Shown here one piece after another: positions 15,321 to 19,487 of a stretch of DNA of 22,819 nucleotides. Each line of letters begins with the position of its first letter. The stretch's first letter is position 1. The stretch lies in IMG/VR virus record IMGVR_UViG_3300029286_000257, positions 1 to 22,819 of that record, one strand, 5' to 3'. This stretch comes from a virus. Both the position numbers and the translations under genes were made by a program. The notes beneath the pieces are model-generated. The model saw only the letters and a list, made by a program, of their open reading frames with translations. It had not been told where the DNA came from and made no database searches.

Positions 15321-16313
15321 GTGCCCCGTCGCGCCCAAGCCAAGCTCGCCAAACTGATCCGGCGCGAGAATGTGTCTGTATCCCAGTTGGACGCCGCCAT
15401 CCGCAAGGCCCGGCAACGGGTCGCCATGATCGTACACGCCGCGGCACGAGATCAGAAACTGGTTGTATCCGGGCGCAATCGAGAGGCGCTCTACAAGCGG
15501 ATCGGGGATGCCTACGCCCAGCTTGACCTCGGGCTGAAGGACTGGAGCCGCGACTTGGTGCGCAAGGGGATTGTGGACTGGCGCGACGAGGCGATCCGGG
15601 ACGTGCGCGAGCAGACGTCTACGGACCCGAGCAACGACATCACCCGGTTTTCGCGCGAGTACGCCGAAGACATGTGGAAGCGCGTCGCCCCGCAGAATGG
15701 GCGCAGCCTGGCGGCGGTGTTCACGGACCGGATGGCCGAGGAGGATGTGAAGCGCCTGCGTCAGGCGGCCGTGGAGACGTTCCGGGAGGCCTCGCTCTCG
15801 GGGATGACGGCCAATGAGATCCATGCGACCATCCAGGCGAAATGGGACGCGGCCGCCGGCGACATGGCGGCGTTCCGATTCACCGACGCCGCGGGCCGCT
15901 CCTGGAGCAACGCGCGTTATTTGCAAATGCTGGTGCGGACAACGGAACAGCGTGTGGCGCGGGACAGCTATTTTGACGCCCTGATCGAGCATGGTGACGA
16001 CCTGGCCCAGATCGAAAACGTGGACGGGGACGCCTGCGATATCTGCCAGGCCTGGGACGGGGTGATCGTCAGCATCAGCGGGTCGAACGACAAGTACCCG
16101 AGCTATCAGCAGGCGTTGGATGCCGGTTGCTTCCACCCGAATTGCCGGTGCATGGCGGAGCGGGTGGACGAGACACTTGACCAGGCGGAGATCGCGAAGC
16201 AGGCGCAGACGGAGACGCCGGACTTCGAGCGGCAGGAGGGTGAGACGGACACGGAGTACCGGAACAGGATGACGGAGGCGGTCGGGAAGTATTCGGAGGA
16301 GTTCGGGGCGTGA
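15321..16313 (+). CDS. minor capsid / head morphogenesis protein (gp7/Mu F-like)
   Basis: A 330-residue minor head protein. The first 200 residues are helical and Arg-rich (QLDAAIRKARQRVAMIVHAA). The recognisable part is the C-terminal domain: ARYLQMLVRTTEQRVARDSY, then DGDACDICQAWDGVIVSISG, YPSYQQALDAGCFHPNCRCM. The CxxC and the FHPNCRC segment are typical of SPP1 gp7/Mu gpF-like and phage_min_cap2 proteins, which enter the head with the portal and help DNA exit. It starts at GTG 15321 three bases after the previous stop and ends overlapping the methyltransferase ATG. It lies after, not before, the capsid gene, a less common order. Confidence 0.85.
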   Translation: MPRRAQAKLAKLIRRENVSVSQLDAAIRKARQRVAMIVHAAARDQKLVVSGRNREALYKRIGDAYAQLDLGLKDWSRDLVRKGIVDWRDEAIRDVREQTSTDPSNDITRFSREYAEDMWKRVAPQNGRSLAAVFTDRMAEEDVKRLRQAAVETFREASLSGMTANEIHATIQAKWDAAAGDMAAFRFTDAAGRSWSNARYLQMLVRTTEQRVARDSYFDALIEHGDDLAQIENVDGDACDICQAWDGVIVSISGSNDKYPSYQQALDAGCFHPNCRCMAERVDETLDQAEIAKQAQTETPDFERQEGETDTEYRNRMTEAVGKYSEEFGA

Positions 16314-17623
16314 GTCAGGAGACAGAAGTTGTCAGGACAAAAATTGTCCCGGAAAGACAAAACCTGTCCGGAACAGAAGACCGTATGCTACGCGGAGAGA
16401 CTGGTGTCGATCCTGGGAAATTTACGCGCCGAACTATTGACACGACGAAATTGCCCGACTCGCTTGACCGCACCGTGCAACAGACCAGCTTGGCGAACCT
16501 GAAGAAACAGCCGGGATACGAAGCGGCAAAGTGCCATGGCGATGTCAAGGCGGCCGACGACGTTGTCACGGCTCTGTTGAAAAGGGATCGGATCAAGGAA
16601 CTCAAGGCGAAGCTCGACCCGGACAAGAATGACGAACTCACACACGTTGACCTGTTCAGCGGGATTGGCGGATTTGCTCTTGCCGCTCGATGGACTGGAT
16701 TCCGCACCGTCGCCTTCTGCGAGTGCGAGCCCTACGCGCAGCGCGTCCTGCGCAAGCACTGGCCCGACGTGCCGATCCATGACGACGTGCGAACCTTCCC
16801 CGGAGCGAGCCATGCAGGGGCAACTCTTCTCACCGGCGGATTCCCTTGCCAGCCGTTCAGCCTTGCCGGGAAGCGCGGAGGCGCGGGAGATGACCGCTTC
16901 CTCTGGCCGGCGATGGTTGCCGTTATTGAAGCTGTCTGGCCGACTTGGATCATTGGCGAGAATGTGCCTGGCATCGTCACGATGGAACTCGACCGTTGTG
17001 CATCTGACCTGGAGGCCCAAGGCTACGCCGTCTGGCCGGTTATTCTTCCAGCTTGCGCCGTCGGTGCCTTCCACCGACGAGACCGAGTGTGGATTGTGGC
17101 CCAACGCGAGAAGTCGGGACTGGAAGGGCCAGACGCAACGCGGCCAGCACGCGCCGATGGACGGGTTGCCAAATGCGGTGGCGATGTGGCCGACGCCAAG
17201 GGCGGCGGAGGCCGGGGCAGACTTTGCGAAGCTGAACCGAAGCAAAACCGGAATCAGTCTGCCGACGGCGGCGGCACTCTGGCCGACTCCGAGAGCCGGG
17301 AAGGTGACGGACGAGGAGCCGGAAGCATGGGCGGCGCGGCGGGACGCGGGGAAGGTGTCAACACCACCGCTCACGCTGGCCGTGAAGATGTACCCAACGC
17401 CGGACGTGGGGGCGGCGAAGGGGCGCGGGGCTGCGAGCGCGGAGGATCGAACGCGGCTTGGTGGGAGCCTGAACCCGACGTGGGTCGAGTGGCTACAGGG
17501 ATACCCGCTCGGGTGGACCGACTGCGCGGACTCGGCAACGCCATCGTGCCGCAAGTCGCGGCGGAAATCATGAGGATGATCGTGAGCATACATACGCAGA
17601 ACAATGCCGTGAGGGTCAAATGA
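16310..17623 (+). CDS. dcm: C5-cytosine DNA methyltransferase with a fused N-terminus
   Basis: A 437-residue C5-cytosine methyltransferase. Motif I DLFSGIGG (114-121), motif IV GGFPCQPFS with the catalytic Cys 180, motif VI ENVPG (217-221), motif VIII RRDRVWIVA (256-264) and motif X GLGNAIVPQVA (about 407-417) are all present, so it can be active. Residues 1-108 are extra: homologues normally start near THVDLFSG. Part of this section (LKKQPGYEAAKCHGDVKAAD, then VVTALLKRDRI) resembles the start of phage phosphoribosyltransferases. Residues 265-395, where the target-recognition domain belongs, are Gly-rich and low-complexity, while the +1 frame looks better there. The ATG overlaps the minor capsid stop. 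It probably masks phage DNA from host restriction. Confidence 0.88.
   Translation: MSQETEVVRTKIVPERQNLSGTEDRMLRGETGVDPGKFTRRTIDTTKLPDSLDRTVQQTSLANLKKQPGYEAAKCHGDVKAADDVVTALLKRDRIKELKAKLDPDKNDELTHVDLFSGIGGFALAARWTGFRTVAFCECEPYAQRVLRKHWPDVPIHDDVRTFPGASHAGATLLTGGFPCQPFSLAGKRGGAGDDRFLWPAMVAVIEAVWPTWIIGENVPGIVTMELDRCASDLEAQGYAVWPVILPACAVGAFHRRDRVWIVAQREKSGLEGPDATRPARADGRVAKCGGDVADAKGGGGRGRLCEAEPKQNRNQSADGGGTLADSESREGDGRGAGSMGGAAGRGEGVNTTAHAGREDVPNAGRGGGEGARGCERGGSNAAWWEPEPDVGRVATGIPARVDRLRGLGNAIVPQVAAEIMRMIVSIHTQNNAVRVK
16329..16376 (+). repeat. alternating TTGTC / GACAA half-site array
   Basis: Half-sites alternate in orientation: TTGTC (16329), GGACAA (16335), TTGTCC (16344), GACAA (16356), CTGTCC (16364) and GGAACAG (16370). 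The central GGACAA-AAA-TTGTCC (16335-16349) is a perfect 6-bp inverted repeat. It covers codons 7-22 of the methyltransferase gene, next to its start, so it could be an operator for it or an inserted repeat element. Confidence 0.5.
16629..17573 (+). CDS. overlapping +1 frame with WPTP motifs (possible second product of the dcm locus)
   Basis: A 314-codon frame lies entirely inside dcm, one base forward. Its last half has features that do not look random: LWPN (17094), MWPTPR (17184), LWPTPRA (17277), MYPTPD (about 17387), and SLNPTWVEWLQGYPLGWT near the end. I recall phage proteins with repeated WPTP motifs and a terminal VEWLMGxPxGWT, but I cannot check this. By hand count about 80% of third codon positions in the last ~145 codons are G or C, against about 63% for the dcm frame over the same bases. 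It may be a separate protein, or the true target-recognition segment joined to the methyltransferase by frameshift. The first third is Ser-rich and looks like a shadow. Confidence 0.4.
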   Translation: MTNSHTLTCSAGLADLLLPLDGLDSAPSPSASASPTRSASCASTGPTCRSMTTCEPSPERAMQGQLFSPADSLASRSALPGSAEAREMTASSGRRWLPLLKLSGRLGSLARMCLASSRWNSTVVHLTWRPKATPSGRLFFQLAPSVPSTDETECGLWPNARSRDWKGQTQRGQHAPMDGLPNAVAMWPTPRAAEAGADFAKLNRSKTGISLPTAAALWPTPRAGKVTDEEPEAWAARRDAGKVSTPPLTLAVKMYPTPDVGAAKGRGAASAEDRTRLGGSLNPTWVEWLQGYPLGWTDCADSATPSCRKSRRKS

Positions 17624-17751
17624 CCGCTGCGGGCATTTATACCCTCGACGGGCTGGTTGGCCTTTCTTTCCGCTGCATCGTCGCCGACCCGCCGCGGGCG
17701 CCAGTACGGTGCCGCACTTGGTTGGGGGTTCTTGATTATGGAAACGTTTGA
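17620..17751 (+). CDS. 43-codon ORF, possible MT-A70-type methyltransferase remnant
   Basis: ATG 17620 overlaps the dcm stop (ATGA) and follows GAGGG at 17611-17615. The 43-residue product contains FRCIVADPP, like the IVADPPW motif of MT-A70-type adenine methyltransferases, but the Trp is replaced by Arg and the frame stops at 17749-17751, 14 bases into the Dam gene. It may be the leftover start of a replaced methyltransferase that now serves to couple dcm to dam translation. Too short to be an enzyme. Confidence 0.35.
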   Translation: MTAAGIYTLDGLVGLSFRCIVADPPRAPVRCRTWLGVLDYGNV

Positions 17752-18337
17752 AGACAAGTCACGCCGTGGCGGAACGAAGACCCGCTACCTGTTTTCCGGT
17801 TGCATCCGCAAGGGTGACTACTCGGACGAATACTACACCCCTTCCCACATCGTGACGTCCCTTGGCCGTTTCGACTTGGACCCGAGCGCTGGGCCGAAAA
17901 GCCATGCTCGCCGGAACATCCGGCTCCCCAAAGACGGCCTGTCCGCGAAGTGGACAGGCCGGGTGTGGATGAACCCGCCATACAGTACGCTGCACCGATG
18001 GCTGCAACGGTTCGTCGCCCATGGCGACGGCGTGGCGCTTGTGAACGCCCGCCCCGACGCCAAGTGGTTTCAATATCTCTGCGCCCATGCGGACGCTATC
18101 CTCTGGCTTCGTGGGCGCGTGCGCTTCGAGCGCCCAGACGGAACGTCCGGCGGGTCTCCGGTGGGCAGTGTGCTGGTCGCATACGGGGAGCGCAACGCCG
18201 CCGCGCTCCTTGCGTCGGGACTGCCCGGCGTGGTGATGACGGTGCGGCATTGTACCCCCAACGCTGGGGCTGTGCCTCGGCGCGGTAGCGACGTAGGCAC
18301 CAGCCCCTTGTTGGGGCTTCCGGGTTCTGGAGACTGA
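17738..18337 (+). CDS. dam: Dam-type phage N6-adenine methyltransferase
   Basis: A 199-residue enzyme of the phage Dam family (PF05869-like), which methylates adenine in DNA. The conserved start DEYYTPSHIV (30-39), the FDLDPSAGP element (45-53), and the catalytic MNPPYS (78-83) are present, followed by a strand/helix region (GVALVNARPDAKWFQYLCAH) and SPVGSVLVAYG. Length is typical. ATG 17738 is preferred because it follows a GGGGGT stretch and homology begins soon after; the frame stays open upstream to 17657, giving an unconvincing Arg/Gly-rich extension. The next methyltransferase starts one base after its stop, so the two are made together. Confidence 0.9.
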   Translation: METFEDKSRRGGTKTRYLFSGCIRKGDYSDEYYTPSHIVTSLGRFDLDPSAGPKSHARRNIRLPKDGLSAKWTGRVWMNPPYSTLHRWLQRFVAHGDGVALVNARPDAKWFQYLCAHADAILWLRGRVRFERPDGTSGGSPVGSVLVAYGERNAAALLASGLPGVVMTVRHCTPNAGAVPRRGSDVGTSPLLGLPGSGD

Positions 18338-18338
18338 C

Positions 18339-19487
18339 ATGGTGACGATCCTGACAGGCGATTGCCGCGAGGTGTTGAAGACGCTGCCCGATGCGTCGGT
18401 CAACTGCTGTGTCACGTCCCCGCCGTACTGGGGGCTGCGTGATTACGGGCACGCCGGGCAGATCGGACTGGAGCCGACGCCGGAAGAGTACGTCGTCAAC
18501 CTAGTCGCCGTGTTCCGCGAGGTCCGTCGCGCCTTGCGCGACGACGGCACGCTCTGGCTGAACCTGGGGGACTCCTACACGGCGAACGCTGGGCAGAGGA
18601 AATCCACCGATGCCAGGGGACCGAAGCAATGCACGAATCGCGGAAGCACCGACCTTGGATCACGCGCCCTCGACAACCTGCCCGCCAAGAATCTCGTGGG
18701 CATCCCCTGGCGCGTGGCGTTTGCCTTGCAGGCTGACGGCTGGTGGCTGCGCTCGGACATCATCTGGCACAAGCCAAACCCCATGCCGGAGAGTGTGACC
18801 GACAGGCCGACCAAGAGCCATGAGTACATCTTCCTCCTGACCAAATGCGACCGCTACTACTACGACGCCGAGGCGATCAAGGAGCCGGTGCAGTCGGGAC
18901 CGTCTGACGTGCGGAAGATGCTCGAATCGAAGGACAGGATTGACGCAAAGCATTTCCACACGGACGCCGGGCCGCTGGCCGCCGCGAACCACCGGACGAA
19001 CATCGGGAACAAGCGGGCGGTGGGCGGCACGAAGAAGGAAGGGCCGAACAGCCAGATGCACGTCAGCCATGCGGCAGGGAGAGAAGCCAGCGAGCCGAAC
19101 CCGTCCCGGTCTGCGCTGCGCGTGCATGGCAACGCGCCAGGGCGACACTCTGACGGCGGCCAGGCGTGCAATGACCCGGAGCAACTGTTCAGGAACAAGC
19201 GGGACGTGTGGACGGTGGGAACGTCAACCTACGACGGTGCCCACTTCGCCACCTTCCCGCCCGCGCTGATTGTGCCGTGCATCCTCGCCGGGTGCCCGGC
19301 GGGCGGCACGGTGCTCGACCCCTTTGGCGGGAGTGGGACCACGGGCGACGTGGCGAGCGGCAACGGACGCCGGGCCGTGCTGGTCGAGTTGAACCCGGAG
19401 TACGCGAAACTGGCACAGGACAGGTGCGGCCTGTTCTGTAGCCCCAACGCGAACATGAGGATTGAGGAACGGAGCGCAGCGGAGTGA
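18339..19487 (+). CDS. beta-class N4-cytosine/N6-adenine DNA methyltransferase
   Basis: A 382-residue enzyme with the catalytic motif TSPPYWGLRDYG (26-37) first and the AdoMet-binding motif LDPFGGSGTTG near the C-terminus, the order of beta-class amino-methyltransferases. The start VTILTGDCREVLKTLPDASV is typical. SPPYW favours N4-cytosine, but N6-adenine cannot be excluded. About residues 190-290 form a polar variable segment where a target-recognition domain would lie. It begins one base after dam, with GGAG (18328-18331) upstream. Together with dcm and dam it would give three different base modifications and broad resistance to host restriction. Confidence 0.92.
   Translation: MVTILTGDCREVLKTLPDASVNCCVTSPPYWGLRDYGHAGQIGLEPTPEEYVVNLVAVFREVRRALRDDGTLWLNLGDSYTANAGQRKSTDARGPKQCTNRGSTDLGSRALDNLPAKNLVGIPWRVAFALQADGWWLRSDIIWHKPNPMPESVTDRPTKSHEYIFLLTKCDRYYYDAEAIKEPVQSGPSDVRKMLESKDRIDAKHFHTDAGPLAAANHRTNIGNKRAVGGTKKEGPNSQMHVSHAAGREASEPNPSRSALRVHGNAPGRHSDGGQACNDPEQLFRNKRDVWTVGTSTYDGAHFATFPPALIVPCILAGCPAGGTVLDPFGGSGTTGDVASGNGRRAVLVELNPEYAKLAQDRCGLFCSPNANMRIEERSAAE

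Follow-up and report, generated by a model that had tools for sequence, protein, structure and literature searches.

The question raised by this locus is why the DNA of a viral cytosine methyltransferase gene, dcm, can be read as meaningful protein in two frames. The window, by which we mean the whole 22,819-nt stretch analysed here, is a 22.8-kb viral contig (IMGVR_UViG_3300029286_000257) with terminase, portal and head genes; the dcm ORF occupies positions 16310–17623, and the +1 frame is open from 16581 to 17570 (listed as 16629–17573). A sequence-only reading had noted that, across the C-terminal third of dcm, VADA-type words of the dcm frame are the same bases as WPTP-type words of the +1 frame, and had offered two explanations: a conserved dual-coding locus, or a methyltransferase whose target-recognition part is reached by a frameshift. 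The word-for-word overlap is borne out: GATGTGGCCGACGCCAAG at 17183 reads as DVADAK and as MWPTPR, CTCTGGCCGACTCCGAGA at 17277 as LADSE and as LWPTPR, and GATGTACCCAACGCCGGA at 17387 as DVPNAG and as MYPTP; NPTWVEWLQGYPLGWT was found too. Third-position GC over 17090–17573 is 64.6% in the dcm frame and 78.9% in the +1 frame, close to the 63% and 80% that had been counted by hand. The overlap of the two genes, here called alpha (dcm frame) and beta (+1 frame), starts at 16812, well 5′ of the position 17090 given in that reading (Table 1). Two more DNA methyltransferases lie directly 3′ of dcm, at 17738–18337 (PHROG 111) and 18339–19487 (PHROG 67), and this three-enzyme modification cluster sits between head and tail genes.

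Table 1. Features of the alpha/beta locus (positions in the window)
Feature	Position	Strand	Details and basis
GGAGGAG, likely Shine-Dalgarno of alpha	16295..16301	+	sequence
alpha, C5-cytosine methyltransferase large subunit, dcm frame	16310..17623	+	GTG start, 437 aa, motifs I–VIII and X
alpha motif I, DLFSGIGGF	16649..16675	+	conserved columns, alignment A3
GGAG, likely Shine-Dalgarno of beta	16802..16805	+	sequence; weak RNA fold around start
beta, +1-frame gene nested in alpha	16812..17573	+	ATG start, 253 aa, begins MQGQLFSPADSL; WPTP region and motif IX
alpha motif IV with catalytic Cys, GGFPCQPFS	16835..16861	+	A3 invariant P80, C81, Q82; same bases read +1 by beta
alpha motif VIII, HRRDRVWIVA	17072..17101	+	A3: H156 and R158 nearly invariant, R160 invariant
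beta target-recognition region, LWPN/MWPTP/LWPTP/MYPTP words	17094..17459	+	hhalign probability 97.2, E 4.6e-11; beta-frame Z 4.8, alpha-frame Z 0.4
alpha spacer, predicted disordered, VADA/LADS/VPNA words	17120..17488	+	pLDDT ~40 over most of alpha 271–393; 273–383 without alpha-frame constraint
beta motif IX, LNPTWVEWLQGYPLGWTD	17469..17522	+	alignment A1 invariant L220, V225, E226; hhalign; alpha frame there reads DVGRVATGIPARVDRL
alpha motif X, GLGNAIVPQVA	17528..17560	+	A3 invariant L309, N311; ordered C-terminal helix, block pLDDT 86–96

The dcm frame encodes the catalytic part of a C5-cytosine methyltransferase. Profile searches match alpha to PF00145 (E 1.7e-36), PHROG 363 (E 1.1e-79) and TIGR00675, and the protein has motifs I, IV (PCQ), VI (ENV), VIII and X together with a predicted fold like that of M.HhaI, with which the AlphaFold model aligns over ~205 of 327 residues (Z 24, rmsd 2.4–3.3). 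The PF00145 match ends at profile position 168 of 324. In the model the catalytic core is mostly above 90 in pLDDT and the motif X helix is at 86–96, with the spacer between them at ~40; that is, alpha is predicted to be disordered where motif IX is expected and ordered again at motif X. Ahead of the catalytic domain, 16310–16636 encodes an N-terminal extension of ~109 residues without a Pfam match.

The +1 frame encodes a protein related to the stretch that alpha lacks. The search against phage proteins that had been proposed for both translations places the dcm frame in PHROG 363, as above, and the +1 frame in PHROG 1008 (E 7.6e-31), a family likewise labelled DNA methyltransferase. All 44 aligned beta proteins match PHROG 1008, and beta is conserved across these 44 relatives; Pfam matches none of the 44, and searches of NCBIfam and PADLOC with beta returned nothing. 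Profile–profile comparison (hhalign) aligns beta residues 95–236 with the part of single-chain actinophage methyltransferases that contains the LPTP repeats and motif IX, at the probability and E value listed in Table 1, and finds no aligned counterpart in those enzymes for the N-terminal ~90 residues. One single-chain enzyme, L211, matches PF00145 over positions 1–317 of 324, so the LPTP-repeat and motif IX part falls within the normal order of the domain. AlphaFold models beta alone poorly (pLDDT 61.5, pTM 0.27), and the model has no match in the PDB, an absence that is not evidence of a new fold; the poor model fits a subunit that needs a partner and is not positive structural proof of one. 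It has also to be considered that alpha is a complete enzyme alone and beta a distinct overprinted product such as a regulator or an inhibitor. Alpha does carry motif X and every catalytic motif, and beta has an N-terminal part without a known homologue and no Pfam match, but alpha has no motif IX, its VIII–IX stretch is unconserved (see below) and disordered in the model, and beta is homologous to exactly the part that is missing from alpha; we regard this explanation as very unlikely.

Beta could be translated from a start of its own or by a shift out of the dcm frame. In 57% of loci, vs. 19% of shuffles, an ATG preceded by a Shine-Dalgarno sequence stands where the start is expected, beta in relatives often starts right after a +1 stop, and in the window the RNA around the beta start has a weaker fold than every one of 200 shuffles. 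The chosen beta start is GTG or TTG in about a quarter of relatives, and a few have no nearby start. The second explanation of the sequence-only reading, a programmed ribosomal frameshift from dcm into the WPTP frame after motif VIII that yields a fused methyltransferase with motif IX, accords with beta being +1 throughout, with a junction that would fall near motif VIII, and with actinophage relatives that carry the same halves as one chain or as two +1-overlapping ORFs. However, a programmed +1 shift predicts conservation only past the shift and no start of beta's own, whereas conservation of beta already sets in at its own start and extends over motifs IV–VIII, a stretch that a shift after motif VIII would leave unused, and start codons with a Shine-Dalgarno sequence are enriched, often right behind the +1 stop. 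Moreover, the fusion would be without motif X, because motif X is again encoded in the dcm frame. The frameshift explanation is thus improbable, and we favour, on the strength of these sequence features, independent initiation of beta.

Both frames show signs of selection. In the window, the +1 ORF is longer than in nearly all synonymous-codon shuffles (p ~0.002), and in most low-GC relatives it is longer than in all 1000 synonymous shuffles. Counts of +1 stops per locus, in 87 loci, are 0.01 vs. 3.60 expected over motifs IV–VIII and 0.01 vs. 1.26 expected over VIII–IX, and are at expectation 3′ of beta. In shuffles that preserve alpha, beta-frame similarity exceeds the null by Z ~7–15; in shuffles that preserve beta, alpha-frame similarity in relatives exceeds the null by Z ~7–14; and similarity in frame +2 is at background. 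(The shuffle tests take synonymous sites to be saturated between the loci compared, a reasonable assumption at 40–50% protein identity.) Against stop-free nulls the beta amino acids are still conserved, with median Z of 5.8 in the N-terminal part, 4.8 over VIII–IX and 5.9 at motif IX, and the reverse test gives Z for alpha of 8.9 over IV–VIII, 0.4 over VIII–IX and 4.0 at IX/X. These regional values define an order of selection along the gene: alpha alone, both, beta, both, alpha alone. At alpha codon position 3, heterozygosity drops from 0.63 before beta to 0.46–0.59 inside it and 0.38 at motif IX, and is back at 0.67 beyond the overlap; in single-chain relatives, used as a control, position 3 is always the most variable and +1 stops occur all along the gene. 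We conclude that both frames are conserved beyond synonymous-shuffle nulls, that third-position constraint is confined to the overlap, and that the VIII–IX stretch of alpha behaves as an open but unconserved spacer in which selection acts on the WPTP frame.

The first explanation of the sequence-only reading, a conserved dual-coding locus, therefore holds: the two frames stay open in homologues, and selection acts on each. Two observations had been named there as counting against it. The first, homologues with only one frame open, is not what nearly all loci show; selection confined to one frame is likewise not what is seen overall, but it does describe VIII–IX, which is constrained in beta only. 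A +1 frame open merely from GC content and methyltransferase conservation, for which the GC-rich window and the likewise long and open codon-aligned antisense frame (16388–17593, minus strand) might speak, is almost certainly not the explanation, the +1 frame staying open in relatives at 35–44% GC and the stop deficit and position-3 constraint being limited to the overlap, whereas the single-chain control has +1 stops. The antisense ORF, codon-aligned with alpha, was itself rejected as a gene; relatives have a median of 8 stops in that frame, and it matches no PHROG.

We consider it very probable that a single C5-cytosine DNA methyltransferase is encoded here by two overlapping genes, whose products are a catalytic alpha and an independently started beta that carries target recognition and motif IX. 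What the sequence shows is the conservation of two frames, the start site, the homology of the C-terminal half of beta to the recognition part of single-chain enzymes, and the predicted disorder of the alpha spacer. Alpha would supply the large AdoMet-binding and catalytic domain, with motifs I–VIII, then the disordered spacer, then motif X. Beta, which we infer to be translated from the ATG at 16812 in the +1 frame, would consist of an N-terminal part with a beta-hairpin, the WPTP target-recognition region and motif IX, and would provide the missing small domain. From homology, and by analogy with M.AquI and M.EcoHK31I, beta most likely associates with alpha to complete the small domain of the active enzyme. 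The heterodimer would then methylate phage DNA at its target sequence, probably protecting it against restriction.

The closest precedent is provided by the nested two-subunit enzymes of the M.EcoHK31I type, with which the locus belongs by the features compared. M.EaeI is, like M.EcoHK31I, a two-polypeptide C5 methyltransferase. Lee, Kam and Shaw reportedly described in 1995 an M.EcoHK31I small subunit of 176 aa encoded in an alternative frame inside the 309-aa large-subunit gene; nesting in another frame is likewise found in the window and in nearly all relatives, and the small-subunit length is similar to the 172–176 aa of beta in several loci here. The division of motifs is also the same: alpha has motifs I–VIII and X without motif IX, and beta aligns with single-chain enzymes through motif IX, as the large subunit of M.EcoHK31I has motifs I–VIII and X and its small subunit motif IX (PMC3404938). 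The difference lies in the predicted recognition domain, which in M.EcoHK31I has been placed in the large subunit, whereas here VIII–IX is constrained in the beta frame only. With a published two-polypeptide C5 methyltransferase that has motif IX in its small subunit (PMC3404938), the earlier description of the locus as a candidate for an undescribed arrangement was too strong. M.AquI, also a published two-polypeptide C5 methyltransferase (PMC3404938), and the split actinophage methylases Twister gp79/gp78, Vash 32/33 and TelAviv 6/5, in all three of which the second protein is +1, resemble the locus in having two proteins, with motif IX and all or part of the recognition region in the second. 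In these systems, however, motif X too belongs to the second protein, and the first stops either behind motif VIII or inside the variable region; here the alpha frame holds motif X. The split phage genes overlap by ~30–210 nt, whereas here beta is nested in an alpha that runs on to motif X. Single-chain actinophage enzymes (e.g., OldBen gp68) have the same order of catalytic part, LPTP repeats, motif IX and motif X, and match beta by profile, but carry everything in one frame, with stops in the +1 frame along the gene. An HNH endonuclease with a ShiLan domain is also known to be hidden out of frame in a phage methylase gene (PMC11855218); that endonuclease is a mobile homing insertion, whereas beta is methyltransferase-related and collinear with the methyltransferase. 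The breadth of the arrangement, the recognition domain encoded by beta and the swapping of modules were not found described in the open-licence literature, and earlier descriptions may exist. No adjoining restriction-enzyme gene was recognised beside the dcm locus.

The arrangement is common in phages and prophages: among ~100 viral loci (GC 0.35–0.66) almost every one has the same +1 nesting, as do 77/80 bacterial loci found via beta. The bacterial tally (77 nested, 6 partial, 1 separate, 1 in-frame) takes in phage records L107–L112, and for a few loci the measured end of beta lies past a stop, so that it counts arrangement and not intact genes. Record titles of the loci name Bacillota, Pseudomonadota, Bacteroidota, Acidobacteriota and others. 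So long an overlap, in which selection on both frames is visible across several bacterial phyla, is a clean natural setting for testing how frames share selection. In four loci (L095, L097, L099 and L105) alpha runs ~430–480 nt beyond the beta stop, and in L099 an insert splits the overlap from motif X.

Annotation of these loci often holds one half only. Both genes are annotated in Tadhana and in K1ind2, where one is called ‘Mte8-like’, a name for which the literature yielded a single passing mention; only alpha is annotated in HB10c2 and in the two plasmid records examined; and only beta is annotated in Mycobacterium phage Bipolar (gp69, hypothetical protein), whose record lacks the catalytic methyltransferase frame. 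Nearly all plasmid matches sought beside a restriction gene are annotated ‘DNA cytosine methyltransferase’, and the two regions read contain no restriction gene. Orphan phage methylases may accordingly be cloned or modelled without their likely DNA-reading subunit, and the VADA-type words that recur in these phage dcm proteins arise as by-products of the WPTP words that the other frame encodes.

A broad regular-expression classification sorts the relatives as nested, as split (+1, motifs IX and X together on the second gene) or as single-chain. In the catalytic-domain tree, rooted at its midpoint, most single-chain and split forms cluster (SH-aLRT 98) inside nested lineages; because of the midpoint root, the direction of an origin of single-chain and split forms from nested ones is not fixed. 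Several pairs of close relatives (e.g., L014/L017 and L056/L081) have flanks with 86–96% DNA identity and a VIII–IX module with 55–66%, and a divergent module between similar flanks is as expected of an exchangeable specificity module. A more general scheme, which we put forward tentatively and as somewhat doubtful, is that the nested form is an old and widespread class in which beta holds all recognition, a module swap alters specificity while alpha has just to stay open, and single-chain and split forms derive by changes of frame. Just past alpha motif X, L056 (2860–2949) and L079 (2870–2997) carry a WPTP-like or RTPTA-like fragment in the beta frame that is missing in L081 and L084 and looks like a leftover or spare recognition module. 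In bacterial loci L138 and L187, alpha stops early and the beta frame contains motif X; the two are possible intermediates between nested and split forms.
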